Assembly (NCBI GenBank): GCA_019694835.1
Contig: JAIBBE010000066.1
Span: forward strand, 1 to 64,000
Direction of reading: 5' to 3'
Source: Fimbriimonadaceae bacterium
Lineage (GTDB): Bacteria; Armatimonadota; Fimbriimonadia; Fimbriimonadales; Fimbriimonadaceae
DNA length: 64,000 nt
In this document: positions 25,551 through 46,888 of the stretch, one piece after another
Layout: every line of letters starts with the position of its first letter
Position numbering within the stretch: position 1 is the first letter of the stretch
Position numbers and translations under genes: made by a program
Notes under the pieces: generated by a model
What the model was told of the DNA's origin: nothing
Seen by the model: only the letters and a program-made list of their open reading frames with translations
The model's database searches: none

Positions 25551-25560
25551 TAATCTGACC

Positions 25561-27425: not shown

Positions 27426-27427
27426 CT

Positions 27428-30067: not shown

Positions 30068-30093
30068 CAAAGCTTAATGATGATGTGAAACAC

Positions 30094-30243
30094 ATGTACG
30101 ATCGGCAAAGTACTTCATTTGAGGACGATGCCAGCATAGCCTGGGCCGAGCGGAAGTGCCCAGATACTCACCTGAGTAGACTACAAGTGTTGCACTGGAG
30201 ATTCGACAAGGATCGCTACGAAGTGGTTCACGATGATGACTGA
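30094..30243 (+). CDS. Possible 49-aa small protein
   Basis: An ATG-initiated frame (MYDRQSTSFEDD to the Asp-rich end VVHDDD) with plausible composition but no clear ribosome site. It may be a remnant. Otherwise 30068-30475 holds no gene I can support. Confidence 0.25.
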   Translation: MYDRQSTSFEDDASIAWAERKCPDTHLSRLQVLHWRFDKDRYEVVHDDD

Positions 30244-30475
30244 ATGATATGGAACACGATCTCTGGTAACCGATAAGAAAGCGAGGAATATGTCATGACA
30301 CGAAAGGCAATAGCGTGCGAAAAGTGAGTTGAATATAGACTTAGTGTGAGGCGAACAAATGCAGATCACGCTTTACACCAGCGAATCAAAATCGGATTGC
30401 ATTTCGACTGTAAACGTGACTCCAGTGGACCATCGCTGGCCGACGAAGGAGTTCGGATATCGATAACGAAGTTGC

Positions 30476-31405
30476 TCAGCCATCGAGCGCTTTAACAACT
30501 GCCCGATCCACATCTCCGTAGAACGCTAGATCAAGTTTCTCGACGACATCTTCAGGGAGCCCACCGAACTGACTCTTGTTGCCAATCGGCAAGAGTGCGC
30601 GAATGGCTCCGTTGTCAAGAGCCAGCTGAAGCGGTTCTTGGATCGAGTTCATCGCCTTGAGATTTCCTTGGACGGAAAGGTCTCCCAAGATCACCGTGCC
30701 TCCCTGCACTTGACGATTCTGAATAGCCGAAATGAAGGCGACCAGGAACGCCACGCCGGCATCGCATTCGACGTTGCCGCCTGTAAGATCTACAGCCTCG
30801 ACGAACATGTCCTTTCCGGCGAGTGTCTGAGCCCAGCCAAGCTTGCCTTTCACGGACTGCAGGTACGCGAACGCTCGGTTCATCGACTCCTTAGGTCCCT
30901 TCTCCAAGCCGCTGGGAATTCGGAGTTTTCCTGTGCCGGCAGAGGTCGAAACTTCCAACCGGAAGAGCCCGACCTTTCCCACGTCATCGGTGGAAGCAGT
31001 GTAGACGCTGCCAGGTGGCAGAGGATCCTGACTGATCAAGCCAGTTCCGCCTTGCTCGGGAACGCCGACCACACGCTCGGCCCCGCTCGCTTGGTCGATA
31101 TAAGAGAAGCTTGTTTTGTAGAACTCGAATGAACCTCTCTTCTTGAGCTGTTGCTTAACGCGACGGCGTCCTTGAAGCGCGATCTGGAGGTATTCCTCAA
31201 GCGCCCCTTTACTCCAGCCGCCACCCGGATGCAGTCCAAAAGTGAACCAGCCACGGCACACGCCGAGGAGATAGCGATCGGCGAACGGAGGCCGCTGATA
31301 GTGCGATAGAGAGTGTGCATCCAGGATCGCTCTCTGGCAGATTCCGGATCCACTAGTCTGATGCTGTACATGAGAGCGGCAGTTGGCGGGCGGACTGACT
31401 GACAT
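30476..31405 (-). CDS. Detached Lon-like domain of BrxL (5'-truncated)
   Basis: From about residue 58 the 309-residue product matches the C-terminal third of BrxL: LHPGGGWSKGALEEYLQIAL, GRRRVKQQLKKRGSFEFYKT, SYID, VPEQGGTGLI, then the Lon-like part with VILGDLSVQGNLK and NGAIRALLPIGNKSQ. The first ~57 residues do not resemble BrxL, so the ATPase half has been lost. A canonical Lon GPSA serine motif is not evident. It lies 77 bases after the desulfurase gene and is the last gene of the defence operon. Either it is a relic of an older BrxL or it supplies the Lon domain in trans to the short BrxL upstream; the sequence does not decide. Confidence 0.75.
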   Translation of the reverse strand: MSVSPPANCRSHVQHQTSGSGICQRAILDAHSLSHYQRPPFADRYLLGVCRGWFTFGLHPGGGWSKGALEEYLQIALQGRRRVKQQLKKRGSFEFYKTSFSYIDQASGAERVVGVPEQGGTGLISQDPLPPGSVYTASTDDVGKVGLFRLEVSTSAGTGKLRIPSGLEKGPKESMNRAFAYLQSVKGKLGWAQTLAGKDMFVEAVDLTGGNVECDAGVAFLVAFISAIQNRQVQGGTVILGDLSVQGNLKAMNSIQEPLQLALDNGAIRALLPIGNKSQFGGLPEDVVEKLDLAFYGDVDRAVVKALDG

Positions 31406-31482
31406 TTCCTCCCAGCCATCTTCTCCTGTGGACTGTTGAGAGGGTGATGGGGCTAGCGTTTCAACACTGATCTTCTGTACTG

Positions 31483-32610
31483 CTACCGGTTGAGCGCGAG
31501 GATTTGTGCAGTTTCCAGCAGTGCAACTGCGGCATGATGGCCATCTTCCTCAGAATGACTCCGACCAAATGACACGCGTACCGTTTCTAAAGCCTGAGTG
31601 CGACTCAGGCCCATAGCAAGGAGGGCGGAGGAGGGGCCAGGTGCCCCTGAAGAGCACGCAGTCCCGAAACTCACCGCGACTTCTGTGTTTAGTCCTATGA
31701 GGTCGCCGTCAATACCTGGGAACCGCACACTGGCCGTATTTGGAAGGCGGAAGTGGGATTTGAAGTGAAGTTCGCACGCTGGCTCCTGAGAAATTCTATC
31801 CTCGAAAGACGTTCTTGCTTCAAGAGCACATGCTCGCCAAGTCTCCCCTTCGGAACATGCAAGTTCTACAGTAGCGGCCATACCCACCGCACCAGCCACG
31901 TTTACCGTGCCCTCTCTAACACCTTGATCTTGGGCGGGCCCGAGTCTTCCTCGTTTCAAGATAGACATGAACTCTCGTCCTAGCATCAAAGCGCCAACTC
32001 CTTTCGGGCCATAGGCCTTGTGCGCCGAGAGAATCACTGCGTCAGGACTCCGTGCGTACTCACCGCTGTCGATCTTCCAGAGCCCTTGCGCCGCATCGCA
32101 AATGAGTATTCCTCCTATTCCGTGAATATGCTCGGCAAGTCGTTCAATTGGTTGAATGACACCTGTCTCCGAATTTGCCGCCTGAATAACGTAGATTCCA
32201 ACCTCGGTCACGTTCGCCACATTGAGAATGCCATCCTGACAGTCCAGTATCCGAATATCAATGCCGCGATGTGAGAGTCTGTGAAGGCAGTTCTGCACGG
32301 CCCGATGCTCAAATGGTGTTGAGAAAATCGTACTTCCTTGGACGAAGTCGGCAGACATTGACTCCAGGCACAACTGTATTCCCTCGGTTGCACCCGAAGT
32401 GAATACAACCTCATCAGGATCGCGCTTAAGCGCCGCTGCGCAACGGTCCCTCGCGCCCTGGAGTGCTCTTGCAGCTTGTCTCCCGAACTGATGGATACTG
32501 CCCGAGTTCGCGAACACGTCCGTATGGAAGGGCCGCATCTCCTCTAGAATGCGCTCGTCACACGGTGTCGTTGCATTGTGGTCGAGATACATCATGTCTA
32601 AATGTGTCAC
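31483..32610 (-). CDS. Cysteine desulfurase (IscS/DndA-type) in the BREX operon
   Basis: A 375-residue PLP enzyme that takes sulfur from cysteine onto its own cysteine as persulfide. Lys198 (SAHKAYGPKG) is the PLP lysine, Cys319 (GTACSSGAPGPS) the catalytic cysteine, and SGATEGIQL the cofactor-binding loop. The GTG start overlaps the brxL stop (GTGA), so the two are coupled. In Dnd systems such an enzyme (DndA) feeds sulfur to DndC. Here the natural acceptor is the PAPS-reductase-like BrxP of the same operon (inference). Confidence 0.93.
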   Translation of the reverse strand: MTHLDMMYLDHNATTPCDERILEEMRPFHTDVFANSGSIHQFGRQAARALQGARDRCAAALKRDPDEVVFTSGATEGIQLCLESMSADFVQGSTIFSTPFEHRAVQNCLHRLSHRGIDIRILDCQDGILNVANVTEVGIYVIQAANSETGVIQPIERLAEHIHGIGGILICDAAQGLWKIDSGEYARSPDAVILSAHKAYGPKGVGALMLGREFMSILKRGRLGPAQDQGVREGTVNVAGAVGMAATVELACSEGETWRACALEARTSFEDRISQEPACELHFKSHFRLPNTASVRFPGIDGDLIGLNTEVAVSFGTACSSGAPGPSSALLAMGLSRTQALETVRVSFGRSHSEEDGHHAAVALLETAQILALNR

Positions 32611-34046
32611 ACCACATCTGCCCTAAGCAGCTCGTCAAATTTTAGGTATTCCTTGTCCCTCGCTCGCAGCTCGTTCCAGATATTCTGCCGATATTCTAAG
32701 GCAGGAAGCACGCATAAGTCTTCAAGCTCTGAGCGGTTGTAGACTTCGTGAGGAAACAACAATTTAAGATACCCGCTTGCTATAGCGCGAACGGCCTCTT
32801 GATTTCTATGATATGGCGCAGAACCTGATAGCCTCACACGAGAGGTTACTGCTTGATCATAAGACAGTTCATCTCGAAGCCCACATAACACTTCACCGAA
32901 AAAGTCCGACTTCATTCCGAGGCCACTAGAAAATGACTTTGTGTTAAGCTTAGGCAGTTTCCAACCGGGCACAATACCGCGGAACCGATCAAGCAAAGCA
33001 GATTCATGAAACTCACGAGGTAGTTCTTGCACTAACGAATCGCCAAGAGGCATGAGATCCTCATTCAATGGAATGTTTGCCAAGAGCACCAGAGAGCAGT
33101 CTGATCCAGTCTCATATTTGCCGCCACGCGTAATCTTGCCATTCGCGAGGTAGCCCTTCAACCCACCAACGATCTCGCTAGAATGTCCAAGTTTCAAGGT
33201 CTGGACTTCATCCAATACGACGACTTTGAAGCGGGCAAGTAATCCCCACTGGCCGGAAGCATTGTTTACAAACAAGACTGCAGGTGAGACTGATCCTGAT
33301 GAGATAAGCCGGACACGAGGGCTGATATTCTCATACAGGTAGCTTTTTCCTGTGCCCTTCGGTGCGAGCTCCATCAAGTGCATGCTTTGCTGGGTCAGCG
33401 GAAGCAGCCGCGACAGGGCGTACAAGTGCTGCTGCGGTGTCATTGATGTCGCGTCCAATCCCATCGAATCAATCAGGAGGTGGATCCATTCAGTGGTCGT
33501 GAACTTAGCTCTTGCAGCCTTAAACAGCTCCACATCGATAGTGGCCTGCATCGGCTTGAAGTCAGCTAGGTAGACACCAGGTCCACCTTCGATAGTTGCA
33601 ATTCCCCACATGCCTTGCTTCAGAAGGTCAGGATAATCGTGCATCGTTGATTGCAGAATCTGAGCATCACGAATTCCTAGGAGCGGAAACACCGCCCTTG
33701 TGTCTGCTTCCTTATCCTTATGAAGTACAACCTCAGCTTCGACTGAGGTCAGTACCCTAAGCACTTGGCCCGATGAAAGGCGAAGCCTCACGACAGGAGC
33801 TTCTTCCGTGGTGGGCATCTTCTCTCTTGCCCAGTCAAGAACCTTCCGCCCGTCATCTATCGACAGTGGGCCGTCTCCAGGAACAATTGAGCTAAGCACC
33901 CACTCACCGACATAAGCCGGGATTCCACGAGCGGTCAACTTGGAAGCAGGAAGTCGCCGCTTATCAATGACAAGGTCGCCAAAAGCATCACGAACCTTGG
34001 TTCGCAGTTCTTCAAGCTCAAACTTGCTCTCGTAGCCCACTGTCAT
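32607..34046 (-). CDS. brxL: BrxL-type AAA+ ATPase lacking the Lon domain
   Basis: A 479-residue protein matching the N-terminal and ATPase parts of BrxL: FTTTEWIHLLIDSMGLD, LMELAPKGTGKSYLYENISP (Walker A 228-236), VVVLDEVQTL (Walker B, about 275-284), the FHESALLDRFRGIVPGW block and LKLLFPHEVYNRSELEDL. Normal BrxL has about 680 residues with a Lon-like C-terminal domain. This one stops just where that would begin, and a separate Lon-like gene lies two genes downstream. BrxL forms ring assemblies on DNA and is needed for phage restriction in BREX. It overlaps pglZ by four bases (ATGA). Confidence 0.88.
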   Translation of the reverse strand: MTVGYESKFELEELRTKVRDAFGDLVIDKRRLPASKLTARGIPAYVGEWVLSSIVPGDGPLSIDDGRKVLDWAREKMPTTEEAPVVRLRLSSGQVLRVLTSVEAEVVLHKDKEADTRAVFPLLGIRDAQILQSTMHDYPDLLKQGMWGIATIEGGPGVYLADFKPMQATIDVELFKAARAKFTTTEWIHLLIDSMGLDATSMTPQQHLYALSRLLPLTQQSMHLMELAPKGTGKSYLYENISPRVRLISSGSVSPAVLFVNNASGQWGLLARFKVVVLDEVQTLKLGHSSEIVGGLKGYLANGKITRGGKYETGSDCSLVLLANIPLNEDLMPLGDSLVQELPREFHESALLDRFRGIVPGWKLPKLNTKSFSSGLGMKSDFFGEVLCGLRDELSYDQAVTSRVRLSGSAPYHRNQEAVRAIASGYLKLLFPHEVYNRSELEDLCVLPALEYRQNIWNELRARDKEYLKFDELLRADVV

Positions 34047-36100
34047 AGGTCACCAAGTAGATCGATGTTTTGCTTCTGCATTTTTCTGACAAGCGTCGTA
34101 AAGGGAACGGCGATTGCACGAATTTGGCCGTCCGGAGCCTTCAGTTCAAGAGTGGCCACTTCAGAGACGCGATCAAACAAACTAGGAAGATCCAGAATTA
34201 TTGGCATAGTCGTAGCAGGTGGCACGAATATAGAATGAGCATCGATCTCGATATCCTCTTTGTCCATCTTCCAGCATACGCGAACCAGATGCAGCGCAAC
34301 TATTGAGTGATTTTCGACAGACACATGCAACTGGCCGCCTTGCCCCTCTATTCCGTGCTGTTCGACGTGACCGGAGACCAGAAGGTCCATCGGTGCCTTT
34401 CGAAGCTCCATCCAGTGTACAAAGCCTTCCTCAGGTAAGAGGCCGCCATGGGGATACCACACTTCAGGGACCCCTTTGAATGTCGTTGCGCCAAGGGCCA
34501 CGACAGCATCACCTTGCGAGTCGAAGCCGTAGAGTTCACCATTTAGGCGAACTGATCCCGGGGGGACGTCGCCGCTATCACGCGGCACCTGCAGTATGGC
34601 TCGTCGATGCACTTTTCCCTCGCTAACCCGGTCCACGGTTGGCTCCACCCTGCCCAGACAACGGCCATGATCTGCGCATAGAATGATGCGGTCGATCGGC
34701 AAATCATCGCAAATATCCGACAGCTCGTCCGCAATCATGTCCAACTGCGAGCGCGCCAGCCTTTTCAGCGTTGAGTCATTGACGCTGAGAGTTTCGTATG
34801 CCCTATCTGGTTGCAGGAGCTTGACGATTACCAAATGCGCGTTTGCTTCTAAAAGCGCCTTCGCTTTTGCTAGTGATGTAACCGCATCGCCTTCATCTTC
34901 GCTGAAGGCTGCCGCGACGCCTGCAGTCATGCTTGGCCTACAAACTTCAGTTACCGTTGGAACTGCTGCGAGAAGCCACTCCGAATTCACGATAGTCCAC
35001 TGAGGGTGTCTTGACCTGAACCTCTTGAAGAGAGCACTTGTGTCATCGGGCAATGGGCCATCTAGAATCAGAAGAAGAGCCGACCGAGCGTCCGAATCAA
35101 TGGCTCTAACTCTGTGCATCGCTAAGGGCCCCTTGCCACTTCCGATCCCGTCTCGTATTGCGGCAAGATATACTTTTGAAAAAGCATCCCAAATTGGAGC
35201 AACTACATCATCCGATGCAATCTGGCGGGCGTGCATCCACCTTCGATAGGGCAGGTAACTTGATTCGAACCATTGCCCCAACTCGGAGAAATCATCAGGC
35301 ACTTCTGATGGCGGCGTCGGAGGGCATGCTTCGCGCAGTGTCGTCAAGTGCTGCCCATCCAGATATGGATGTACGAGCTCGAAGAGGGCGGCGTCTGCCG
35401 GAAGTCCGTTCCGAACTGCCAAGGCGTAAGCCTTCGCTACTTCCGTCTTAGCTGGAATGGCCGCCTCGGATGTTAATGCAACCCGCAGCCCTCCAGGACC
35501 ACTTGCTGACAGTTGCTTTAGGGTCCAAGCCTCGATCGCATTAGCAACGTGAGGCTCCTCGTATACCCGGAATTTCGAAACAAGTACAGGGCTTCTGACT
35601 CCGACAAGGTGCTCGACTATTTCATCTTGACTGGCATGACTAGCAATTCTATAAGCGTCTGTTGAAGGAGCATCCGCGAATTCATCCAAGACACATTCCA
35701 ATAGGACACCCTCTCCTTGCGAGAGCAACTGGCCCAGTCTCCAACGAGCCACTGCCTCAGCGTGGTGGAGAGATGGTCGCGGTGCGGATGGGAAACCTAA
35801 CTTCAACTGAGCCCAGGCGAAAACGGAGGAACAATTCGCAGCTTCGTTGTCGGGCACAAGCAAGGATGCGTAGGGCGCTAACTTTGAAAATCTGGCGAGT
35901 AGCCAGGATCTTGCACTTTGAACTTCTTCAACGTGCCAGCCCCGGACATATGCAATGGTCTTCAACCAGGTCGCCAATTGGCTATCCGATGAAACATGGA
36001 TCACTTCGTCTCGTGCCAGGGCTCTAAAAACCTCAGCGTCACAAGTCACGGCTGTATCTGGAAGCATCGCCGACGGCCCAACACGGAGCTTCTTAACCAT
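34043..36100 (-). CDS. pglZ: BREX phosphatase-fold protein PglZ
   Basis: A 685-residue member of the PglZ family, the hallmark of BREX, with an alkaline-phosphatase-superfamily core. Visible marks are the metal/nucleophile strand LLLILDGPLPDD (Asp347), ADHG at 476-479, and the C-terminal signature HGGLLPEE at 551-558, matching the HGGxSPEE block of PglZ proteins. The start shares one base with the brxC stop. The N-terminal ~300 residues are helical, as in other PglZ proteins. Its exact biochemical role in BREX is unsettled. Confidence 0.88.
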   Translation of the reverse strand: MVKKLRVGPSAMLPDTAVTCDAEVFRALARDEVIHVSSDSQLATWLKTIAYVRGWHVEEVQSARSWLLARFSKLAPYASLLVPDNEAANCSSVFAWAQLKLGFPSAPRPSLHHAEAVARWRLGQLLSQGEGVLLECVLDEFADAPSTDAYRIASHASQDEIVEHLVGVRSPVLVSKFRVYEEPHVANAIEAWTLKQLSASGPGGLRVALTSEAAIPAKTEVAKAYALAVRNGLPADAALFELVHPYLDGQHLTTLREACPPTPPSEVPDDFSELGQWFESSYLPYRRWMHARQIASDDVVAPIWDAFSKVYLAAIRDGIGSGKGPLAMHRVRAIDSDARSALLLILDGPLPDDTSALFKRFRSRHPQWTIVNSEWLLAAVPTVTEVCRPSMTAGVAAAFSEDEGDAVTSLAKAKALLEANAHLVIVKLLQPDRAYETLSVNDSTLKRLARSQLDMIADELSDICDDLPIDRIILCADHGRCLGRVEPTVDRVSEGKVHRRAILQVPRDSGDVPPGSVRLNGELYGFDSQGDAVVALGATTFKGVPEVWYPHGGLLPEEGFVHWMELRKAPMDLLVSGHVEQHGIEGQGGQLHVSVENHSIVALHLVRVCWKMDKEDIEIDAHSIFVPPATTMPIILDLPSLFDRVSEVATLELKAPDGQIRAIAVPFTTLVRKMQKQNIDLLGDL

Positions 36101-39100
36101 CAGCTTTCTTCCGCCAAATCTTTGAGAAACTTAGCGAGTTCCAACAGGGTCTTCTTGTCATCCTTGATCCGATTTGCGATACTGCGGATATAGTCTGCAC
36201 TTCGAGTGACTAGGAGCGTCTCGATCTCAACGACATGGGAGGCTGCACGAAGTCGCCTGTCGCCGCTGACGTACTCAGGTGGAGACGCAAAATACTCCTG
36301 AAGTCTCTCAAGGTCTCGGATCTTTGTGGTTCTGGCAGCGATCGACCTTTCGTTGCGCTCGAAATCTTTATCGGCAGCGCGAATCCTGGCCGCCTCAGTT
36401 GATCGAAGAGAGGCCAAAACGCGCTCAGCCACTTGCTGGATAGCAGGAGGTGCCGATTTGTCATCGACGTACCTTTGGACTTCTTCCGCCTTTTTCAGAA
36501 GTTTTGAGCGGGCTTCGGGAGGGTTCTTGTCAATGGCCTGTAGGTCATCAATGAGTTGCAGGAATCGTTCGGCACGATCTCTGAGCTGGACGACCCCGTT
36601 AGCCTCTGGAGTTCCGTGAAGACGATCAGCGAGACGCTCAAGACTAGTGTTCAGCGCGTGAAGGGCCCGCCAATTGCCAACCTGAGAAAGCGTTACCTGA
36701 ATGGAGCCCGCTGGATCAGCGAGTCCAGAAATCTCGGCATCAATATCGGCAAGCTTCGCCGCGAGTTTTTCCTCCACCTCCGGAGCCAAAGGTGCAATCG
36801 ACTCGGCTTGCTTTAGGAAGGCTTCACGTGCCTGCCGCAGTTCCAGCAGCGTCTGCCGCTTTGGCTGAAATCCGCGAAGTTCTCCTACGAGCTCCTTCTG
36901 CTCCGCCAGAGATGCAAGCAGCTTCCTGCGCTCGTCAAGTTTGACGAGAGTTTCCCGAACTTGTTCCGCAAATCCCGTTGCCCCAATCTTAGTTGCCTTG
37001 GACTCCAGTATCCGGAGCCTCTCTCTTTGCAGTTCATACTGAGTCAAATCCTTGATTTCCGCTGACGCTGCGCCATTCGTTTCCCAAACACTAGTAAGTG
37101 ACTCACTGACATTCGTCCGTAACTCAATTGGGGCGGGCCAGCCCTCATTGACTCGTCCAGGGGTTGCCTTTCCAAGCTTCTCCAAGCAGTCCAGCAGCCT
37201 TCCTGGATTGTTAAAAGACTCCGCAACACCGTTGACCAAGGCATAGTAAGCGCGGGCCGCCTCCAGGTCGGCTTGAAGCACTTGAACGGCAGACTCGCAA
37301 CGTGACTCCCAACCTTCCAATGGGGCTTTCAGAAAATTCTCGAGAACCCTGATAACCTCAGTTGCTTCCGCGCGCGTGAAGACTTCACTTTGGCTCTCAA
37401 TCTGTTCAATGAGAACCTTCGCTCTCTCGTTGAGCTCTCCGATGTCTTCACGTTTAATCTTCAGCCGCAGTAGATTGCCGAGTAATGTTGTCATCTTCTG
37501 GTCAGGACAAAGCCTGGACATGGTCGTTGGACCATCCAGATTCAGTTGTACTTCTCGGCCCTGAGAGCCGAGCCATCCGCATGTGACCAGAGCTACGGTG
37601 CAAGTATCGAGTCCATAGGGTGGTCGGGCAAATCGTTGAAGAATTGGAGCAAGGGGTCGAGAACTACCTGCTGGGAATTCTTCGTGAAGCTCAGCCCACA
37701 GCGCAAGGATTCGTGAATCGTTCGGACTGCGAAGTTGGTAGTCCGCATCGAGAATGCCCCATTCGTTCCGGAGATAGTTCTCCGCGACAGTCATGGCGGG
37801 ACCGTTTGGTTCCGCTGTCCTTATCGCGTTTACAGATCCTGTTAGAAGCGCGCCGGCCAGTTTTGCGCAACCGTTCGTGAAACTGTGCTGTCCCAAATGT
37901 GAGGCGGATGAGAACTTTGCGGGGCCCTTGGAATATGCCTTACGTAGCAGTCCGGCTCCTACGGCTTGATCGCTCTTATCCCCGAGCGCATCCAGCGTTG
38001 ATCTGAGGGGCGGAGCCACAATCCGAGTCACCTTTTCGCGGCCATACTTGTCGACCGCCGCACGAAGACGCTGCTTGACTTGGTCAAGGCCTGTGGTCCA
38101 CTGATCACGCAGTTTTATTCGATCGTCTTGGCTAACAAGATCTGTCGCCGCCAGATCAACAAGGGCGGCTTCAACCGCGCTCGCGACTTCAGTTGCAGTC
38201 ACGATCACCACTGGAGGGGCTTCGAGAGAAGGATATGCTTGTTGAATCAGTGAAGGGCCCTCCCTTTTAATCCACTCGACATCGTCCGGAGAAAGGGGAA
38301 GAAACACCAACTCGACAGCACGGACCCAGTCCTTGGTTCCAGCAAAGGACAACTGGTCAGAGAAGCGGGGAAGCTTGGACAATAACCCTGCTTCAAGCTG
38401 AGATCGCATGGCAACCAGCCGCACAAAACCCCAGTCCGTACTGGATCCCCAGTCGACGGCCGCTGGCTTCGCGCGCATGAAGTCAGGGGCGGATGAAGCG
38501 ACAAGCGTCGTGAGCTCATCGATTGACTTCAAGTCGAGGCGAACATTCCCACGGGCGGCACGTAATGCCTGCTCAAACTGAGCACGGTTCGCGCCACTGA
38601 AGAAGCGATATGCGCCGGAAACTCGTTCAAGTTCAATGATTCCCCTTTCCAACAGGTCATCAAGAGTTTCCTGAGCGGTCTGTAGACTTATGCCCGCAAT
38701 CTCAGAAACGAGTCGAGCGTATCCGCCTCTACCGGCATTTAGAGTGGGTAGGTTGCCAGCCGCAATAAGGGTCATCGCTCGGAGCACCCAATCGTGCTCT
38801 GCCGAACAATCGCCGCCCAGCGAATCCCTCGCCGCCTCCACTTTGCTTCGAAGCTCCGATTTGAACATCGGAAAGAATGGCTCATAGAGCTCGTTCGCGA
38901 CGATCCAGTTCGGATGACCGTCCACCAGTGCATCCTGGTCCGTCATGCGGAAGAACTGATCCTTCACGAATTCCAAGACACCACGTGGGTTTTGCACCAC
39001 GTCAAAGCGAAGGTTGCTCAGTAGCATCGTTGAGATCGGATGCAAAGGAAACGAGCCGATCGTGATCTTGTTCTTGACTTGGTCGAGACTGTAACCAAGT

Positions 39101-40278
39101 TCGACGCTAAGCCGATCCTTGAATGCCTCAAAGGTGACGATCGTGGCATCGCGAATGGACTCGGTAACCGACGGCTGGAACACTTCCCATTGACTTGGTT
39201 GCTGCTCTAGAAGTCCATCGAGCACTGCTTCCAGTTCCGATCGGAGTTCGTAGCGATGCTCTCTGGGTATTCGGTTGAGCTGCTTCGCAACAGGATTATC
39301 AGGCAATAGTTCGCCAATCGACCTTCTGGCAGCCTCGTTCGGATCCATGGTTCCTAACGCGACCAGAACTGCGGTTCCATGCTTCCTGCGCTCAGGGGCG
39401 AGAATCGCCTCGAACAGGTCTTGCAGCGTATCTCCCGGCTCGGGGCGTCGCGCTACCGAATCAATGAAGACATGGAACTCATCGAAGATGATAGCGATGC
39501 CCGTGAAGGGCTTGCCTTCTCCGCATAGGTCATCATGCAACGTATCAAGGAGGCTGCGAACAGTGATTTCGAACCCAAACTGCTTCGGGATGCCATCCGC
39601 CACAACGGCAGCCGATAACTCGTCAACGAGCCGCCTGAAATCTGTCCGAGAGTCTCGTTCAACCAGGGATTTTCGAATGTCTGCAAGATCGCGTCCCTTT
39701 TTGTTGAGCCATTCCTTTGCAGCCGATTCCGTCGTCGCATCCAGTCGATCGATCCACTCCAGAGCTTTGGCTTGCCAAAGCGGGGGAGCGTAGTCTTTCG
39801 ATGCCTCATGACGAAGCAACTCCCTCTCGACTTCCTGCAATACCGCCTGCTTCAAGTTGGGCATTTGGTGGCCTTGCAGACAGAGAGTCAAGTACGGCTT
39901 GGGATGCGCTTGCCGCCAAGCTAAGATCTGTTCCGCGTGCTCCTGCGATGAGACTGATGCCAACAGCTCCTGAATCTTGCTAAGATTGCTATCGCCCCAG
40001 GGCTGGCCGAAGAAGTTAGCGAGCACGACCCCGAAGTGGGTTTTTCCGTGTCCGTAGTTGGCCGTCAGCGACCAAATGTTCTTTTGGCCGGTGGCCAACC
40101 CGATCCCGACCATCCTGAGCCAATCCCAACTTCCGAACACGGGCTTTTTCTCGAGCCTAGCAAAGCAGAATGACCCACACAGCTCTGCATTGGACTCCGG
40201 CTTGCGGAAATCCATGAGGTCAATCGCAGTGGCAAAGCCTGCGTCGCGATTCAGTCTAACAAGATCGTGTACCTTCAT
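36100..40278 (-). CDS. brxC: BREX P-loop ATPase BrxC/PglY
   Basis: A 1392-residue ATPase, slightly longer than the usual ~1200 for BrxC/PglY. Walker A is YGHGKT (75-80), followed by HFGVVLANFFG, and Walker B is FDEFH (265-269). A long coiled-coil-rich C-terminal third is visible around residues 1090-1390. BrxC is a core BREX component thought to help recognise or remodel DNA with BrxB/PglZ-type partners. It precedes pglZ with a one-base overlap. The ATG at 40278 follows an AGG-containing leader. Confidence 0.88.
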   Translation of the reverse strand: MKVHDLVRLNRDAGFATAIDLMDFRKPESNAELCGSFCFARLEKKPVFGSWDWLRMVGIGLATGQKNIWSLTANYGHGKTHFGVVLANFFGQPWGDSNLSKIQELLASVSSQEHAEQILAWRQAHPKPYLTLCLQGHQMPNLKQAVLQEVERELLRHEASKDYAPPLWQAKALEWIDRLDATTESAAKEWLNKKGRDLADIRKSLVERDSRTDFRRLVDELSAAVVADGIPKQFGFEITVRSLLDTLHDDLCGEGKPFTGIAIIFDEFHVFIDSVARRPEPGDTLQDLFEAILAPERRKHGTAVLVALGTMDPNEAARRSIGELLPDNPVAKQLNRIPREHRYELRSELEAVLDGLLEQQPSQWEVFQPSVTESIRDATIVTFEAFKDRLSVELGYSLDQVKNKITIGSFPLHPISTMLLSNLRFDVVQNPRGVLEFVKDQFFRMTDQDALVDGHPNWIVANELYEPFFPMFKSELRSKVEAARDSLGGDCSAEHDWVLRAMTLIAAGNLPTLNAGRGGYARLVSEIAGISLQTAQETLDDLLERGIIELERVSGAYRFFSGANRAQFEQALRAARGNVRLDLKSIDELTTLVASSAPDFMRAKPAAVDWGSSTDWGFVRLVAMRSQLEAGLLSKLPRFSDQLSFAGTKDWVRAVELVFLPLSPDDVEWIKREGPSLIQQAYPSLEAPPVVIVTATEVASAVEAALVDLAATDLVSQDDRIKLRDQWTTGLDQVKQRLRAAVDKYGREKVTRIVAPPLRSTLDALGDKSDQAVGAGLLRKAYSKGPAKFSSASHLGQHSFTNGCAKLAGALLTGSVNAIRTAEPNGPAMTVAENYLRNEWGILDADYQLRSPNDSRILALWAELHEEFPAGSSRPLAPILQRFARPPYGLDTCTVALVTCGWLGSQGREVQLNLDGPTTMSRLCPDQKMTTLLGNLLRLKIKREDIGELNERAKVLIEQIESQSEVFTRAEATEVIRVLENFLKAPLEGWESRCESAVQVLQADLEAARAYYALVNGVAESFNNPGRLLDCLEKLGKATPGRVNEGWPAPIELRTNVSESLTSVWETNGAASAEIKDLTQYELQRERLRILESKATKIGATGFAEQVRETLVKLDERRKLLASLAEQKELVGELRGFQPKRQTLLELRQAREAFLKQAESIAPLAPEVEEKLAAKLADIDAEISGLADPAGSIQVTLSQVGNWRALHALNTSLERLADRLHGTPEANGVVQLRDRAERFLQLIDDLQAIDKNPPEARSKLLKKAEEVQRYVDDKSAPPAIQQVAERVLASLRSTEAARIRAADKDFERNERSIAARTTKIRDLERLQEYFASPPEYVSGDRRLRAASHVVEIETLLVTRSADYIRSIANRIKDDKKTLLELAKFLKDLAEES

Positions 40279-40307
40279 TGAGGGCTACCTTTGTCGATTG
40301 TTCGGGT

Positions 40308-40748
40308 TCAAAGTACAACGAGTCGCTTCTCACTCTCGAGCTGATCCCGCTCGGGACCCTGAGGTCCCAAAAAGGAGGCACTTTTTGGCAATAGCAAAAT
40401 GACGGGGTGCGGGGCATTGCGAGCAAGGCGGGCGAATGCGAGCCAAAACTCATCAAGGTGCTGACGACTCCATCGAGATAGAACCACATCAAAGTTCTCA
40501 ACTAACCTGCAAAGGAATGGAGCGCTCTCGGCTGCAATCAGTCTCAGCTCGGCTATCATCTTGTCACAACTTTGGTCAACCCACCTTTGATCACTCTCAA
40601 GGCCTGCAAGGGTTCGACCAACCCAGTCAACACGATCAGCTGGGAGCCTCGTTGCCAGGTCTTCGGCTACGTTCAGCGTATACGCAAAGACAACACCGCT
40701 TCGATGATAGAGCGATTGGTCGGTGAATGCGCTTAGTTCATTCTTCAT
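40308..40748 (-). CDS. Unknown 146-aa BREX-operon protein
   Basis: I do not recognise this protein. The start MKNELSAF at 40748 lies seven bases after the DUF4007 gene stop; the frame is open 15 codons further. The product is helical in its first half and has a hydrophobic strand HPVILLLPKSA near residue 117, but no P-loop or metal motif. It is too unlike BrxF (type 3) to use that name. It lies between the sulfur/DUF4007 module and the core brxC-pglZ-brxL block and is co-directional, so it is a candidate new component. Confidence 0.75.
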   Translation of the reverse strand: MKNELSAFTDQSLYHRSGVVFAYTLNVAEDLATRLPADRVDWVGRTLAGLESDQRWVDQSCDKMIAELRLIAAESAPFLCRLVENFDVVLSRWSRQHLDEFWLAFARLARNAPHPVILLLPKSASFLGPQGPERDQLESEKRLVVL

Positions 40749-40755
40749 CGCCAAA

Positions 40756-41559
40756 TTAATCGTATAAGCCGGCCATGACCTCGCTGACGTCATGCCACCG
40801 ACGAACTATCTGATGGGGAGGAGCAGAAGTATAGAGATCGATTATTCCAAGTTGCTTCACCTTCTCAAGAAGTGCTTCTATATCAAGTTTCGAGAGCCTA
40901 AAGATATCCTGGAATCTCGAAGCGGACAGGAATGTATCCATTCCAGCCGTGAGCTGATCTGGATGAATATCACTCCAGCGTTTTGCCAAGACATAGGCGA
41001 CCACCGCTGCGGAAGGCCGCGCATTCGGAGCTGTCCCAACGTAAGCATCCCCATTCCAGCTCATCAACGCTAGATTTCCAAGGAGGTCAGCTTTGGTGTA
41101 GCCATCAGTAAGTTTCGTGACAGCGGCCTGGATCTTGGGACGGACCACTGACTCCCCCTCAGAAACAACATTAGCAAGCTCAATTGAAGTTCGCGGTGCT
41201 CCAACAATCAAGAAATCAAGCATCAACTTGCCCCAATAAGTAGGACCGCGTCCAGCCGGGTCGACCAAGCCAAAGTGCATGAGCCATATCGAATCCATTT
41301 CCTCAAGAAAAGGATCGTGAACAATCACCCTTTCGCCGAGCTCCGTGAGTCTTCTCCCATTACCAGCCTCCTCCACAAAACCACAACCTACTCCCAGGTT
41401 TGGGATGGCAATGGCCATGTTTGCGCCCAAATCTGTCCCCCGGCGGATGACGTCCCGGTTCGCACCCGGGTTGTCGCGCAGAAAGCGCAGGACACTCGAA
41501 AGCCGTTCGCGGCTCAGCTGTAGACCCTCGTGAAAGTTAATTCCTATGCGCTTAGTCAT
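40756..41559 (-). CDS. DUF4007 family protein, second copy
   Basis: A 267-residue DUF4007 protein: FHEGLQLSRERLSSVL at the start (the family's F-x-x-HE block), RGTDLGANMAIAIPNLGVG, RRLTELGERVIVHDPFLEE and SIWLMHFGL. DUF4007 proteins occur beside PAPS-reductase-like proteins in DNA phosphorothioation and BREX type 4 loci; their job is unknown, and the fold looks like winged-helix DNA-binding. The start at 41559 overlaps the stop of the upstream gene (ATGA). Confidence 0.82.
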   Translation of the reverse strand: MTKRIGINFHEGLQLSRERLSSVLRFLRDNPGANRDVIRRGTDLGANMAIAIPNLGVGCGFVEEAGNGRRLTELGERVIVHDPFLEEMDSIWLMHFGLVDPAGRGPTYWGKLMLDFLIVGAPRTSIELANVVSEGESVVRPKIQAAVTKLTDGYTKADLLGNLALMSWNGDAYVGTAPNARPSAAVVAYVLAKRWSDIHPDQLTAGMDTFLSASRFQDIFRLSKLDIEALLEKVKQLGIIDLYTSAPPHQIVRRWHDVSEVMAGLYD

Positions 41560-42014
41560 TTTCGATAAAGCTCCTGCCTCAAGACTTCCATCAGGCGAAA
41601 CGAGCATAACAAGTTTGTAGCCTCTTCCTTCCAAAACTCAAGCATTGGAGACTGGATCTCTGCGTGTGAGACAGACCTAACCAGGACCGACGTGAAACCA
41701 GTCCTTAGATGTTCCAGATCTTCCGAGTTAACACCGGGCACCGGGACAAGCTGCCAAAAGTCGGAGTTTCGAAGATGGATAAACGGATTTGCAAGTTGCA
41801 CCCTATCTGTAGGTCCCTGTGTAAGAGAAAAGTAGAGCCGAAAACGATTTTCCAACCGAGAATCTGGCTTGATAATGCCATCCCACGTCGGCGTGCTTCG
41901 AGCTATATCTAGCGCTGCAAGTAGTAGGACAACCTTATGCGGTTTGTGTGAGGCACCGCTCTTCAGTCGACGAGACGGAGCAACTGAAGATACGAGCTGA
42001 TCCAACGGGTTCAT
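41556..42014 (-). CDS. Stand-alone ScoMcrA-head-like protein
   Basis: A 152-residue protein resembling the N-terminal head domain of ScoMcrA-type and related HNH endonucleases: KPHKVVLLLAALD at 24-36, the spacer DSRLENRFRLYF, and NPFIHLRNSDFWQL at 76-89. In full-length enzymes this head accompanies sulfur-binding or SRA domains and an HNH nuclease; here it stands alone. It overlaps brxP by four bases (ATGA), so it is made together with the PAPS-reductase-like protein. A role as adaptor or modification reader is inference. Confidence 0.7.
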   Translation of the reverse strand: MNPLDQLVSSVAPSRRLKSGASHKPHKVVLLLAALDIARSTPTWDGIIKPDSRLENRFRLYFSLTQGPTDRVQLANPFIHLRNSDFWQLVPVPGVNSEDLEHLRTGFTSVLVRSVSHAEIQSPMLEFWKEEATNLLCSFRLMEVLRQELYRK

Positions 42015-42802
42015 AGACGACAAACCAGACAGGAGTCGTCTCCGTCGTCCTCCATCGCAAATGTTTCCACCAATTTCAGTGGTCGGAATCCGCGCCGAGC
42101 ACTTCGTTCTTCAGCTTCCAGACGTATTTGGCTGATTCGCTCTGGGCGCTGGAGTTCCTCCAGACTCTCCCGTGAAACCCAAGTAAAACGTTCACCTGTC
42201 TCAGGATCATACTTCTCGAAAGATTTTGCCTTCTCAAAGAGTTCGGGATGCTCTTCGCTCAAATTTGCCCACTCTTGACGCTGCTGAAAGAAGCAGAAAT
42301 AGCAACCAGATCTCGATCGCCATCGATAGTAGTCCGGAAGCCCCAGGCCACTTTCTAAGAGAATACGCTCGACTCCAGCACGATCAATGCCGTCGTCCTT
42401 AAACGGATACACGGGAATGATGTTCTCCTTTTTGGAAATGTAGCCACTCCGATTCTCATCCGCCCTGATGCCAATATAGCTGTAGACCAGACCATCTCCG
42501 ACGTACTTCTCGAATGGCTTTATCTTGAGCATTCTTGTGCACCATCGAGTTCTTGGATCAGGCAGGACGCCACGGTATAGCTCTAGGTAGTGTGCGAATG
42601 GACGCTCAGGATTTAGTCGGACAATTTTCCGATCTAGAAATGCTTCCAGCTTGTCTATGTATTCATACGTCTCAGATAACTCTTCACCGGTATCGCAAAA
42701 GATGTATTCCATCTCGGGAATCCGGCCCCTCATGTGGATTGCGAGAGCAGTGCTATCTTTTCCGCCAGATAGGGAAAGGATATGTCGAGGCGATTTGTTC
42801 AT
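42011..42802 (-). CDS. brxP: PAPS-reductase-like BrxP (DndC-related)
   Basis: A 263-residue PP-loop protein with SGGKDS at residues 12-17, the CDTGEE block, WCTRMLK and a C-terminal cysteine set (GCYFCFF and the end motif CLVC) that could bind an Fe-S cluster. DndC and IscS-dependent sulfurtransferases share this design: ATP activates a phosphate for sulfur transfer. A PAPS-reductase-like BrxP defines BREX type 4. The ATG at 42802 lies four bases after the ATPase stop. Expected partner: the cysteine desulfurase at 31483-32610. Confidence 0.9.
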   Translation of the reverse strand: MNKSPRHILSLSGGKDSTALAIHMRGRIPEMEYIFCDTGEELSETYEYIDKLEAFLDRKIVRLNPERPFAHYLELYRGVLPDPRTRWCTRMLKIKPFEKYVGDGLVYSYIGIRADENRSGYISKKENIIPVYPFKDDGIDRAGVERILLESGLGLPDYYRWRSRSGCYFCFFQQRQEWANLSEEHPELFEKAKSFEKYDPETGERFTWVSRESLEELQRPERISQIRLEAEERSARRGFRPLKLVETFAMEDDGDDSCLVCRL

Positions 42803-42806
42803 GGAT

Positions 42807-45800
42807 CTACTTTGCCTCCAGTGTCCGCAGCAACTCTCGAACCGATTCAATCATCGTCTGCCTGTCAACATCTTCGAAAGCCGTGAGAGTAGTATAGAGC
42901 TTGGAGGCAATTTGGCGTGCTTGCTGATTGACCTTGCGAGCGGATGAGCCAAGTTGGCGAAGCACCTCTTCCTTGATTTCCCCACATAGGGCCTTCGCAC
43001 GGGCCTCAAACAGCTCGCAATCTTGATCGGTCCACGACTCGACCGGACGCATTGCAACCAGCGCCAGTGCACCCGTTTCGGCACTCTCCACGTCTTCGAT
43101 GGCTAAGCGTGAACATAGCTCGCGCGCCCTAGGATCCTCAAGACGGTCCCGGATGTTGGCGGACAGACGCATCAACTCTGTAAATCCATATGTTGATGCT
43201 TCCAGACCGGCTTCATTTGCCAAGACGTAAGACGCCCACTTGCGAGTCGATGCCACAACTCCGTCAAGTTCCCTCAGAACCAGAGAAAGGCGAGTCACGA
43301 ACTCAGAAGCATTGTTCGGATCGTGTTCGCCAAGGGGTTCAAGCTCAAGTGCCGTGGGCAGGTCGTGGAAAAAGAACCGTTCAGGGGACCGGGCATCCAA
43401 CGCTGAAGAACGAGCTGCCCTCGCTCTCAAAGATACTTGCTGAGTCAACTTAGCGCGGGGAGGCAATCCGTCAATCGCCCGAATGACAAACTTCACCGCT
43501 GGCATGAGTGACGAAGGCTCCACTCCGAGGCGTCCGCAAACGTCGTCAAGGGCCAATTGCCGAGCTCCTGTCTGCCGACATCCGGCAATGGCAAAGAGCT
43601 CCGGCCGACGGATGAGCAGTTCCCAATGAGCGATGTTGGGCTCTGACACAAACGAACCCTCTCGGTAGAGTGCGACCTCTTTCTCGTGGCACATCATGAA
43701 TGCCAACAAGATGATTGGCAGGGGCCCCTCTACTGCGCCGAAGGGAGGCACCGCCAGCTGTTCAATCAACCGCGAAACCGTGATGGGCTCGGGAAAGGAA
43801 CCAAAAAGTGTCTTCGCGAGGTGATCCCATAGTGGCACCAAGTTGCAGGGGTCGGTATCGCGTGGTGCCCCAAAATGCCATTGCCCATCTGGTTGTTGCC
43901 TGTGGATGCCGGATTCAAGCAGCACTGACTCGTATATCGCTCGATCCGGGGGGTAGCCGTCGACATATCCGAGCCTGCTCTCAGACCGCCGAGTGAGCAT
44001 CCGCTCCAATAGATCCCGTCTCGCTGCCGCGGCTGCCGAGGAGAGTGAGCGTCGATTGATTAGTTCATTTCGAATACGGGGAGCCTGTACATAGCGATTG
44101 TCGCAAACAGTGCTGTAGAGTCTTGTAAGGTCTCGGCGGCTTGCTACGTTTTGCCTGCACCCCTTGTGATAGAAAATGCACCCATTCGGGCCAGTTGGGT
44201 CAAGGAGCCGATCTGCTTCGGAAGCCATTGCTGCTGACAAAGCGGCCCGCCTGGACGCCAGCTCTTCGCGAGCAACCCTATCTCCCCGCAGCTCGTGGCT
44301 TGACGCTTCCACCAAGGTGATCGCTTCTAGCTCTTCCGCCATTGCTCGAAAGTTTGGAGCTCGATGTGCAACAGCGACAATCACGTCGTCACGTCCCAGG
44401 TCTTGCGCCCATCGTTCGAACTTCTGCTGAGAACTTGACGATTGCCCAAAGCTGATCGCCAAAATGCAGTTCGTCTCATCAACCACTTCAGGCAACTCAA
44501 TGTGATCAGGGTCTGTCAGGATGACCGGTGCAAACCAACGCAAAGTCCCTGTTTCCTCGAAGTGGCGTTGGGCGATGCCTGCCCTCATTGAGCCAGTCTC
44601 CTTCAGCAACTTGGGGAGATTCGAGCGGCCGGCAACTTCGACCCTGGACTTCTCAAGGAGACTATCCAGGTCCACATCGCTGCCCTCCCAAAGAACCCAG
44701 GCTCCTAGGTGGCGGCGATGAACGACTGCCGATCGGCTCGCCAACCGATCAAGGGCAGGCTTCGCATCAGAGCCGAGGGCCAAAGAGATTGCCTCAGTGG
44801 TTGAAGTGAAGGGTGCAAATCGTCCCAATGCAGTTAGCATTGCCACGGTCCTCAAGACGTCGCGCTCATCTGCGTCGAATCCCGGCCTTGAGTGGAGCAG
44901 TTCCAGGGCAACGCGCCACCGTCGGGATGCACTGTGGGACCTGGCGCCATGCCCAATCCACTCCGAGACATGCTCAAACAAATCACAGAGTCTGATGAAT
45001 CGAGAATGCTCGTGAGACGTGAGGAGTCCCCGCTCAACAAGGAAAGCAAACAGTGATCGTTCGTTCTGCCCAAACCTTCGCATGAGGATTGGAATGGCCG
45101 CTACGACAACTGGATGAAGCGGCCAGCTCATGGCACATATTTCGACGAACCTGTCCAGATGCATCGACGCGGGCCAGATTCCCGGCAAGCCGCGAACAAG
45201 ATCCGCCGTGCGAGCCACCTCGTCTAGCTCAGGCGGTGCGCTGTTGATGGAGTCGGCAACGAGCTTGGCAAGTGTCTCTTCCGGCGGTAAGTAGGGGATA
45301 TCGCTAAATCGCCCCTGCACCTTGATCCACTCATTTCTTGCGGTTGTGTCGAGTCCCTCAGCGTAGCCGACGAACGACTGATGGAGAACTCCCACCACCA
45401 CCATTGGCGGTGTACTTCGATTCGCCGCCTCACCTAGTTCCTGGAGGACGTATGGGTCCCCGAGTCTCGGCTCGCTGAGCGCGTACTCGAGGGGCTTTCC
45501 CAGTTCATCGAGCACGAACAGAACACCATCGAACCCCTGAGCCTCGGCCGCCCTCGGCAGCTCGTCGAATGATAGGCCAACCGGTAGCCCGAACCTGATA
45601 CAACTTGCATCGATCGCGTCGCTGATCAGGTTCTTGATCGGTGCCGCAGTGCAAGTTGCTAATATCGGAAGGAAGCGTCTCTTCGGTTGACGATTCCTTG
45701 TTGCTGACTCTAGCCGGTCGAGCGCTCGCAACTGTCTGCTCTCGCTTCCGCACAACAAATCCGTGAGGAACAAGACCATCGCTGACTTACCGGTGCCAAA

Positions 45801-45983
45801 CGGGCCGGTGAGCGTAAACGCGCGAGTGGCAAACATCCCTTCCGTCGCGGCGAGGACTTTGCTGAGCGCTTCTACAGACGATGGGCTCAGGAGGTAATTC
45901 TCCGTTGGGTCCACGGAAAACCAGTCCGACTCAATTCGAACCGACCTCAGGATGCGTGGATCAAGCAGGCCCTTCTCGTTCAT
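42807..45983 (-). CDS. Large AAA+ ATPase, accessory to the BREX operon
   Basis: A 1058-residue ATPase with Walker A GPFGTGKS (60-67) and Walker B VLDELG (157-162). It is distinct in sequence from BrxC but of the same broad kind (large P-loop protein with a helical C-terminus). The start MNEKGLLD at 45983 overlaps the DUF4007 stop (ATGA); the frame reaches back to 46082 inside that gene. BREX type 4 as described has one BrxC; this would be a second large ATPase. DNA translocation or remodelling is inferred only from the fold class. Confidence 0.85.
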   Translation of the reverse strand: MNEKGLLDPRILRSVRIESDWFSVDPTENYLLSPSSVEALSKVLAATEGMFATRAFTLTGPFGTGKSAMVLFLTDLLCGSESRQLRALDRLESATRNRQPKRRFLPILATCTAAPIKNLISDAIDASCIRFGLPVGLSFDELPRAAEAQGFDGVLFVLDELGKPLEYALSEPRLGDPYVLQELGEAANRSTPPMVVVGVLHQSFVGYAEGLDTTARNEWIKVQGRFSDIPYLPPEETLAKLVADSINSAPPELDEVARTADLVRGLPGIWPASMHLDRFVEICAMSWPLHPVVVAAIPILMRRFGQNERSLFAFLVERGLLTSHEHSRFIRLCDLFEHVSEWIGHGARSHSASRRWRVALELLHSRPGFDADERDVLRTVAMLTALGRFAPFTSTTEAISLALGSDAKPALDRLASRSAVVHRRHLGAWVLWEGSDVDLDSLLEKSRVEVAGRSNLPKLLKETGSMRAGIAQRHFEETGTLRWFAPVILTDPDHIELPEVVDETNCILAISFGQSSSSQQKFERWAQDLGRDDVIVAVAHRAPNFRAMAEELEAITLVEASSHELRGDRVAREELASRRAALSAAMASEADRLLDPTGPNGCIFYHKGCRQNVASRRDLTRLYSTVCDNRYVQAPRIRNELINRRSLSSAAAAARRDLLERMLTRRSESRLGYVDGYPPDRAIYESVLLESGIHRQQPDGQWHFGAPRDTDPCNLVPLWDHLAKTLFGSFPEPITVSRLIEQLAVPPFGAVEGPLPIILLAFMMCHEKEVALYREGSFVSEPNIAHWELLIRRPELFAIAGCRQTGARQLALDDVCGRLGVEPSSLMPAVKFVIRAIDGLPPRAKLTQQVSLRARAARSSALDARSPERFFFHDLPTALELEPLGEHDPNNASEFVTRLSLVLRELDGVVASTRKWASYVLANEAGLEASTYGFTELMRLSANIRDRLEDPRARELCSRLAIEDVESAETGALALVAMRPVESWTDQDCELFEARAKALCGEIKEEVLRQLGSSARKVNQQARQIASKLYTTLTAFEDVDRQTMIESVRELLRTLEAK

Positions 45984-46888
45984 GACACTCCCAACATGTA
46001 ATATTCTTCCAGAAGCTCGAGATCGGAGACCGGTGGAACGAATCCGATTCTCCTGATCGGGCCATCTACGTTTACAATCCATCTCCTCGGGTTCAATCGT
46101 TCGAGACCACGCATGTGGGCGGCGACTGAATCTTCATCCAACTTGAATGCCTGTCCTGGGCTGCCGGGAAGGTAGGTTGCATCTGACAGGGAGCACTCTG
46201 AAGCCTCTTGCAACCTGAGAAACTGCACGAGTGCGAATCCGAAGACCTCGTCTGGTAGGGACCGCTTCGGACCAACATTGAACGAATACCTTTCACCGCC
46301 GCCGTGTGAAATGAGGCCCAGGTCTGTCAAAGGGCAGCTGAAATCTTCCTCCGATCCAGAGCTCCGGATGGTGACATAACACCTCACCAGCACGTCGGCG
46401 TCCCGCGACACTGTCGATTCTTCAACTTTCTGGCCCCCAGAGTGCGTCACCGCCAGCGACACCAAGTCCGACTTTCTGAACTCGTTCTCCTTGCTGTACA
46501 TGAAGGCGATCCGCCAGAGGCTCAGGCGTTCCAGATTCGTCACGAGCAGCCAGTGGATCAGCCAAAGAGTTGCGGCATCCTCCATGTAGGGATCGCTAGA
46601 TTCGCCGAAGATGACCTTGGCCACGGCGCTAGGTGCCAGTTGCCGAACTCGACTGGCACCTGCAACAGGTTTCTCCTCAAGCATCTGAGTTGCAAGGCAC
46701 CACGTGCGAATTGATCGCACCATGTTCTTGCCAACACCGAGCCGGACAACCGCGTCCTCAGCGTTGAAGGCGTTTGGGTCGCCGACCGCCAGCACGCCTT
46801 TTCGAATCCACCCAAGTCGAAACGGGAAGGACTCGTGTCCACCGAACGAGACCTTGGATGAAATATCAATGGCTGTTGATGTGATCAT
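45980..46888 (-). CDS. DUF4007 family protein, first gene of the defence operon
   Basis: A 302-residue DUF4007 protein with the classic FGGHESFPFRLGWIRKG block at 15-31, GVGKNMVRSIRTWC and DPYMEDAATLWLIHWLL. It heads the eleven-gene operon, with AGGGTGAG just before the ATG. It is only distantly similar to the second DUF4007 protein at 40756-41559. The two probably serve different complexes, or one is a regulator (inference). Confidence 0.85.
   Translation of the reverse strand: MITSTAIDISSKVSFGGHESFPFRLGWIRKGVLAVGDPNAFNAEDAVVRLGVGKNMVRSIRTWCLATQMLEEKPVAGASRVRQLAPSAVAKVIFGESSDPYMEDAATLWLIHWLLVTNLERLSLWRIAFMYSKENEFRKSDLVSLAVTHSGGQKVEESTVSRDADVLVRCYVTIRSSGSEEDFSCPLTDLGLISHGGGERYSFNVGPKRSLPDEVFGFALVQFLRLQEASECSLSDATYLPGSPGQAFKLDEDSVAAHMRGLERLNPRRWIVNVDGPIRRIGFVPPVSDLELLEEYYMLGVS

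Follow-up and report, generated by a model that had tools for sequence, protein, structure and literature searches.

A Fimbriimonadaceae operon that appears to combine a complete Ssp phosphorothioate writer with a PglZ- and BrxL-bearing core

The window analysed here comprises 64,000 nucleotides from a Fimbriimonadaceae bacterium (assembly GCA_019694835.1, contig JAIBBE010000066.1, positions 1 to 64,000). A first-pass annotation, made from the letters of the DNA, had recognised in it an expanded type 4 bacteriophage exclusion (BREX) operon. Our results make it somewhat probable that this is an anti-phage operon of two modules: SspA, SspB, SspC and SspD would mark host DNA with phosphorothioate (PT), and a core encoded by genes 5-9 would block unmarked phage DNA. 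The eleven minus-strand open reading frames (ORFs) that had been placed in 30476..46888 are all there with the same coordinates. Tight joining, described for most of the eleven, holds for ten of them (31483-46888) but not for gene 11, which is 77 bases downstream. With refined starts the ten-gene unit, running from 46888 to 31483, has overlaps of 4, 4, 4, 1, 4 and 4 bases and gaps of 4, 7 and 29 bases. Counts of promoter- and terminator-like sites are not clearly above those of shuffled sequence.

As judged by profile matches, the genes for sulfur chemistry make up a complete Ssp PT writer and not BrxP, because all four Ssp profiles are matched and BrxP only weakly and partly. More specifically, gene 1 (45980..46888) encodes the DUF4007 protein SspB (PADLOC 1.9e-72; Pfam DUF4007 2.2e-68), gene 2 (42807..45983 with a refined start; the listed ORF begins at 46082) the ATPase SspC (PADLOC 8e-229), gene 3 (42011..42802, start refined) the PP-loop sulfurtransferase SspD (PADLOC 5e-111; Pfam PAPS_reduct 2.8e-12) and gene 10 (31483..32610) the cysteine desulfurase SspA (PADLOC 1.1e-85, better than the DndA model with 5.6e-82). 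SspC has kept Walker A, SspD the PP-loop motif SGGKDS and SspA the desulfurase motifs SAHK and CSSG. Thus a desulfurase had been named correctly, and what had been called a DUF4007 protein (gene 1) and a large ATPase (gene 2) can now be specified. The name BrxP-like PP-loop protein for gene 3 has to be given up: of the 779 positions in the PADLOC BrxP model it matches only 134-320 (1.2e-9), and a full-length BrxP is absent. Similarly, the idea that BrxP and the desulfurase install a sulfur mark keeps its pathway, which is PT-type and shares an operon with PglZ and BrxL, but loses its enzyme. In genes 1-11 there is no SspE match (PADLOC, E <= 0.05; the library includes an SspE model) and no match by name to SspF, SspG or SspH (PADLOC, whose inclusion of such models is unchecked).

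The core consists of a second DUF4007 protein, a P-loop-like protein that lacks Walker A, another ATPase of the SspC/BrxC family, PglZ and a BrxL that has no Lon domain. The DUF4007 protein of gene 5 (40756..41559, start refined) is a relative of SspB (Pfam DUF4007 5.9e-10; its model has a predicted local distance difference test score, pLDDT, of 87.9). Its fold matches are weak ones of winged-helix type, with E above 0.001 throughout, and do not establish a BrxA-like fold. Gene 6 (40308..40748, start refined) encodes 146 amino acids with a predicted P-loop-like fold (model pLDDT 90.6), is kept in 21/24 relatives and precedes the BrxC-type gene, the same position as in loci L096-L099; its identity as BrxB is not shown (hhalign probability 0.04% against five BrxB). 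Gene 7 (36100..40278), named BrxC2 here, has Walker A. The first-pass name BrxC fits it in part: PADLOC BrxC models barely match (PDLC02480, 0.002, compared with 4.1e-14 for SspC models), but hhalign relates it both to SspC (99.3%) and to the two canonical type 4 BrxC of L091 and L092 (98.5%). Gene 8 (34043..36100) encodes PglZ, the putative effector, with 6/7 checked conserved positions retained; Pfam PglZ has no match at 0.05, though PADLOC PDLC02549 matches at 2.6e-30. Gene 9 (32607..34046) encodes a BrxL of 479 amino acids (PADLOC 1.6e-160). Both of these proteins, named already in the first-pass annotation, score far above background, and its report of a missing methyltransferase is borne out as well, no such family being matched by Pfam and PADLOC profiles in the eleven proteins. 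PglX is absent among genes 1-11, and flanking ORFs were scanned in part. On the subject of PglZ, we noticed cyanobacterial PglZ proteins of 1567-1593 amino acids (L064:5194-9975, L078:5269-9972, L054:5206-9966) whose N-terminal parts contain NERD nuclease and protein kinase domains and which resemble a PglW-PglZ fusion; of the nine ORFs above 1400 amino acids, these three were scanned.

Gene order is conserved over a wide range of bacteria. Related loci (numbered with L) were chosen by BrxL similarity in an alignment search: of 174 pattern stretches 79 encode a relative, giving 77 distinct loci. Counts are limited to loci that extend 8 kb or more upstream of BrxL (24/35 non-cyanobacterial and 32/41 cyanobacterial) and leave out L075, where BrxL is not matched. 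The SspB model of the first round mixed both DUF4007 kinds, and the counts pool them as DUF4007. The series DUF4007, gene 6, BrxC2, PglZ, BrxL is colinear on one strand in 21/24 non-cyanobacterial loci, the exceptions being L029, L035 and L072, and in 19/24 the seven classes from SspC to BrxL are complete. Of the 28 loci with at least 1.3 kb of downstream DNA, 22 have SspA. Among the 32 cyanobacterial loci PglZ is found in 31, BrxC2 in 29, DUF4007 in 21, gene 6 in 19, an SspD-like protein in 5 and SspC in 0, the 10-kb flank being too short to reach SspC. Ten cyanobacterial SspD regions were fetched from ten of the fourteen SspD-positive genomes, and in 10/10 SspB-SspC-SspD precede the core and share its strand. 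Eight of these regions reach the second DUF4007; the contig coordinates of the other two, L102 and L112, connect them to L041 and L037. The BrxL relatives belong to Chloroflexota, Thermomicrobiota, Armatimonadota, Acidobacteriota, Deinococcota, Myxococcota, Thermodesulfobacteriota, Bacteroidota and Cyanobacteriota. As a separate observation, L072 (Chloroflexota) has SspD, DUF4007, an SspC-like ATPase of 1677 amino acids, PglZ and a BrxL outside the main BrxL clade, and may be intermediate between Ssp and type 4.

One gene position, which we call the slot, varies among the loci; it follows SspD and precedes the second DUF4007, and in the window it is occupied by gene 4 (41556..42014, start refined). 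Previously described as a ScoMcrA-head-like protein, gene 4 is more exactly a stand-alone sulfur-binding domain (SBD). It has no Pfam match at all and no HNH, and it matches the solved domain SBDHga1 (PDB 8h0l) at 8.9e-8 alone and at 5.2e-36 with a four-row profile. There are 872 relatives in the protein database, at least 11 of which (among the 120 listed) have no HNH Pfam domain PF13391. A stand-alone SBD fills the slot in the window, L011, L012 and L043; in L093 an SBD lies directly ahead of the second DUF4007, and a fusion of the two is present in L025, in L033 and, on a partial ORF, in L030. Other occupants are a Uma2-family gene in L002 (Pseudanabaena galeata), which replaces the SBD in a locus of otherwise the same order as the window, NOV_C-type genes in L101 and L108, and GmrSD-type proteins in four cyanobacteria (L107, L109, L112 and, by position, L102). 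The GmrSD-type proteins are SspE: the PADLOC SspE model matches at slot coordinates with 2.2e-86, 4.8e-78, 4.2e-75 and 2.5e-73, and a looser family is matched by the same model at 1e-5 in 6/14 control genomes. PT is sensed by the DUF262 domain of SspE, and nicking is due to its DUF1524 domain (PMC9646914). Since the SBD sits where relatives carry a known PT sensor, a reader role is supported, and we regard gene 4 as a putative PT reader. Two DUF4007 genes follow SspD in tandem at L104:11648-13556. SBD-containing ORFs of 313 and 322 amino acids, kin of the stand-alone SBD, lie beside dnd genes at L066:17638-18579 and L103:10880-11848. The one in L066 matches the PT-DNA restriction model NF045808 (3.5e-37).

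How such an operon might work can be outlined as follows. Sequence shows the identity of the writer genes, the homology of gene 4 to SBDs, the doubled ATPase-DUF4007 pair, the conserved order and the modularity; the activities, the reader role and the direction of discrimination are inferred from these. SspA would draw sulfur from cysteine and SspD would relay it, and SspB together with the SspC ATPase would place PT marks in host DNA. The gene 5 DUF4007 protein and the gene 7 ATPase may form a parallel DNA-scanning pair belonging to the effector module, which would carry the gene 6 product as a regulator, PglZ as a phosphodiesterase or nuclease and BrxL as a helicase-like ring. The SBD would read PT and pass the 'self' information to the gene 5 side. 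DNA free of marks, such as incoming phage DNA, would be handled by PglZ and BrxL, and its replication would stop.

Sequence does not settle whether PT is protective or activating, because the known Ssp effectors act in opposite ways: SspE requires PT, SspFGH damages DNA lacking PT, and both can share one writer (PMC8092258). The mark could instead be a licence for attack, with the SBD or gene 5 sensing host PT and switching the core on in the manner of SspE. We hold this to be unlikely, though less so than the other rivals. It gains from the PT-dependence of SspE (PMC8092258, PMC9646914), from the ability of SBDs to bind PT and from the presence of SspE in the SBD slot of four cyanobacterial relatives, an observation that supports the slot as a place for readers and feeds the rival at the same time. 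On the other hand, these four relatives hold SspE and the core together, and as SspE can share a writer with SspFGH of opposite logic, the occupant of the slot need not set the logic of the core.

Modularity is seen in the layout of several relatives. L020 carries the core and SspD-SspC-SspB divergently, on opposite strands. In six Nostocales loci (L050, L052, L059, L065, L066, L075) dndE and dndD flank the core, and it is followed by a DndC-class ORF in L050, L052, L059, L066 and, by position, L075. The dnd genes were assigned by profile on members of L052 (DndC, DndD, DndE and a DGQHR protein) and L066 (dnd methyltransferase and TIGR04062 proteins), and by clustering in the remaining nested loci. 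These arrangements bear on a second rival, in which the gene 5 and gene 7 pair also places PT, jointly with the writer or at a second site specificity, as is thought for type 4 BrxC, and PglZ and BrxL are the sole restriction parts. In its favour, gene 5 is related to SspB, gene 7 is related to SspC and to type 4 BrxC, and core parts of type 1 BREX are needed for modification (PMC12839542). However, the SspABCD set is already complete, and the core forms a colinear block with PglZ and BrxL that is divergent from SspBCD in L020 and lies inside dnd operons elsewhere. A joint or double writer is improbable in our opinion, a little more so than PT-activated defence.

Going one step further, we tentatively propose that genes 5-9 are a self-standing, PT-keyed BREX-type effector cassette that could be plugged into an Ssp or a Dnd writer. 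Its own DUF4007-ATPase pair would duplicate that of the writer, so that the Dnd/Pbe arrangement would have an analogue among Ssp systems, and the variable slot would hold a PT reader in the form of an SBD, an SBD-DUF4007 fusion or SspE. This is a bolder claim than that of two modules, and we give it rather less than even confidence.

Several observations speak against the two-module interpretation or its parts. The residue before P80, which is invariant in the four aligned SBD rows, is N in the window and Y in SprMcrA (matched by eye). The sulfur pocket of SprMcrA consists of Y31, Q32, Y78, P79 and A82, and loss of the tyrosine so matched nearly abolished binding (PMC7470945). Because asparagine replaces the pocket tyrosine in this by-eye match, PT binding by gene 4 is not assured. 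Activity of the window PglZ is uncertain as well, since E436 replaces a near-invariant H (60/63 aligned sequences). Gene 6 has no sequence link to BrxB, and the fold matches of its model are only weak. The tree in which SspC and BrxC2 form separate clades is a quick one with long-branch warnings. The SspE found in the slot of relatives works only with PT and would also fit a PT-activated system. L065 has no DndC-class ORF in the fetched locus, and the six dnd-nested loci are close relatives and perhaps go back to one event. Three of 34 core-bearing cyanobacterial genomes (those of L064, L042 and L049) have neither full DndC nor SspD.

Co-occurrence of the core and Dnd at genome level has to be treated with care. 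Full DndC (E < 1e-100) is found in 25 of the 34 core-bearing cyanobacterial genomes, SspD in 14 and either in 31. When compared with the phylum (194 genomes, two core-bearing ones removed), full DndC looks enriched (25/34 versus 52/192, p = 5e-7), as is either writer (31/34 versus 67/192, p = 4e-10) and DndC in SspD-less genomes (17/20 versus 42/167, p = 3e-7). Against the order, where full DndC occurs in 119/148 genomes, the signal vanishes (25/34 versus 115/144 with four core-bearing genomes removed, p = 0.49). SspD is modestly higher than in the order (14/34 versus 23/144, p = 0.002), in whose unlisted rest core-bearing genomes without a match may remain. Dnd co-occurrence is uninformative because the order-level background is equally high. 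We dropped it as support, and the pairing of the core with Dnd is supported by physical nesting only.

If the two-module interpretation is true, the operon is of use for a general question. Self/non-self discrimination in BREX and the division of parts between marking and attack are open, since most type 1 core parts are also needed for marking. In this operon marking and attack each seem to be served by a separate ATPase-DUF4007 pair, which would allow the writer or the effector to be removed or exchanged on its own. The system offers a direct test of whether a sulfur mark, even one made by unrelated writers, can drive a PglZ/BrxL effector, and gene 4 offers a small, nuclease-free candidate PT reader.

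Gene 11 (30476..31405, minus strand) probably does not belong to the system. It had been described as a detached BrxL/Lon domain, and a detached Lon domain of gene 9 is ruled out: the ORF starts within the ATPase domain, carries the end of that domain and corresponds to positions 427-678 of the 680-residue PADLOC BrxL model (6.8e-75; Lon_C 7.8e-13). It appears to be a remnant of a different, long, Lon-bearing BrxL, and blastp at 1e-3 gives no match to it among the other ORFs of the fetched loci. This BrxL tail directly after the operon may be the trace of a former BREX locus. Left of the operon are a tyrosine integrase (25405-26709) and an AAA_25 ORF (27972-29978); together with a short reading near 27650 that looks helix-turn-helix-like by eye, they suggest an integrated element in 25405-29978. 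No attachment repeats were found from two stretches near the integrase, and megablast of 20000-30400 against plasmids gave no match. Surrounding DNA has DUF1501, DUF1553 and planctomycete-type cytochrome genes, which taken by themselves would point to a host resembling Planctomycetota. An alignment scan of IMG/VR with BrxC2 gave no match, and a search for SspC in phages gave two records.

Comparison with known systems starts with BREX type 4 (BrxP-BrxC-PglZ-BrxL), to which the operon was originally assigned. According to the available text of Rakesh and Krishnan (2026, PMC12839542), type 4 has five components plus a desulfurase, the desulfurase is reported in 255/457 type 4 taxa and BrxL without a Lon domain defines the type. 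A desulfurase is therefore nothing new in type 4, and PT by type 4 BREX together with its desulfurase is already in print. PglZ, Lon-less BrxL, the lack of PglX, a PAPS-reductase-type sulfurtransferase, DUF4007 and the desulfurase are shared with the window. The window differs in having SspD (263 amino acids) in place of a BrxP of 779-786 amino acids, and in its two ATPase families, two DUF4007 proteins, stand-alone SBD and separate 146-residue P-loop-like protein. The canonical loci L091 and L092 have BrxP (786 amino acids), one BrxC-type ATPase (1385 and 1383 amino acids), PglZ and BrxL. They come from a Bacteroidota draw in which BrxP at 1e-60 is found in 2/296 genomes, and PADLOC scoring was done on L091 proteins. 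Accordingly, 'expanded BREX type 4' is right as to PglZ, BrxL and the missing PglX, and the gene set does exceed these two loci, but the sulfur chemistry is that of a full Ssp writer.

A close known relative is on a Thermomicrobium roseum plasmid (NC_011961), with DUF4007, SspC, SspD, DUF4007, a small protein, BrxC2, PglZ, BrxL and desulfurase as in the window. It differs in having no SBD match, and identity is 35% in SspC and 25.5% in BrxC2. PADLOC models PDLC02478, PDLC02507 and PDLC02549, filed as BREX, fit T. roseum proteins end to end and are derived from them or identical; therefore this relative has already been treated as BREX and its SspC called BrxC. No PADLOC model matched T. roseum BrxC2 at 0.01. 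One could then argue that the operon is an ordinary type 4 system, with SspD replacing BrxP, plus passenger genes and mechanistically nothing new. The filing of these models and the shared PglZ, Lon-less BrxL, desulfurase, DUF4007 and absence of PglX point that way. Two ATPase families in separate clades, the order of core and writer kept over many phyla and the lack of a full BrxP point the other way, and we consider this reading the least probable of those discussed. The text on type 4 in PMC12839542, as far as available, mentions neither another ATPase-DUF4007 pair nor an SBD nor nesting in dnd operons. We found no published description of a doubled ATPase-DUF4007 pair with an SBD in the literature outside supplements, where an earlier listing is possible. 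The same holds for SspBCD with PglZ or BrxC (among the matches listed), SBD with BREX, and PglZ with DndC and BrxL.

SspABCD systems with SspE or SspFGH have the complete SspA, SspB, SspC and SspD in common with the window, and in four relatives also SspE; in the window the partner of the writer is the PglZ/BrxL core, and SspE is not matched in genes 1-11. The SBD-HNH type IV enzymes ScoMcrA and SprMcrA (PMC7470945) share the sulfur-binding domain and differ from gene 4 in having an HNH. A similar logic is found in Dnd with PbeABCD or CxC ABC-ATPase systems (PMC6459918, PMC10853773), where an ATPase and its small DNA-binding partner are likewise doubled into a writer pair and an effector pair. 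Identity with PbeABCD is ruled out, as genes 1-11 have no HKD-SF2 helicase or ABC ATPase Pfam family. The parts are non-homologous: an HKD-helicase, an ABC ATPase and DndE there, and an SspC/BrxC-family ATPase, DUF4007, PglZ and BrxL in the window.

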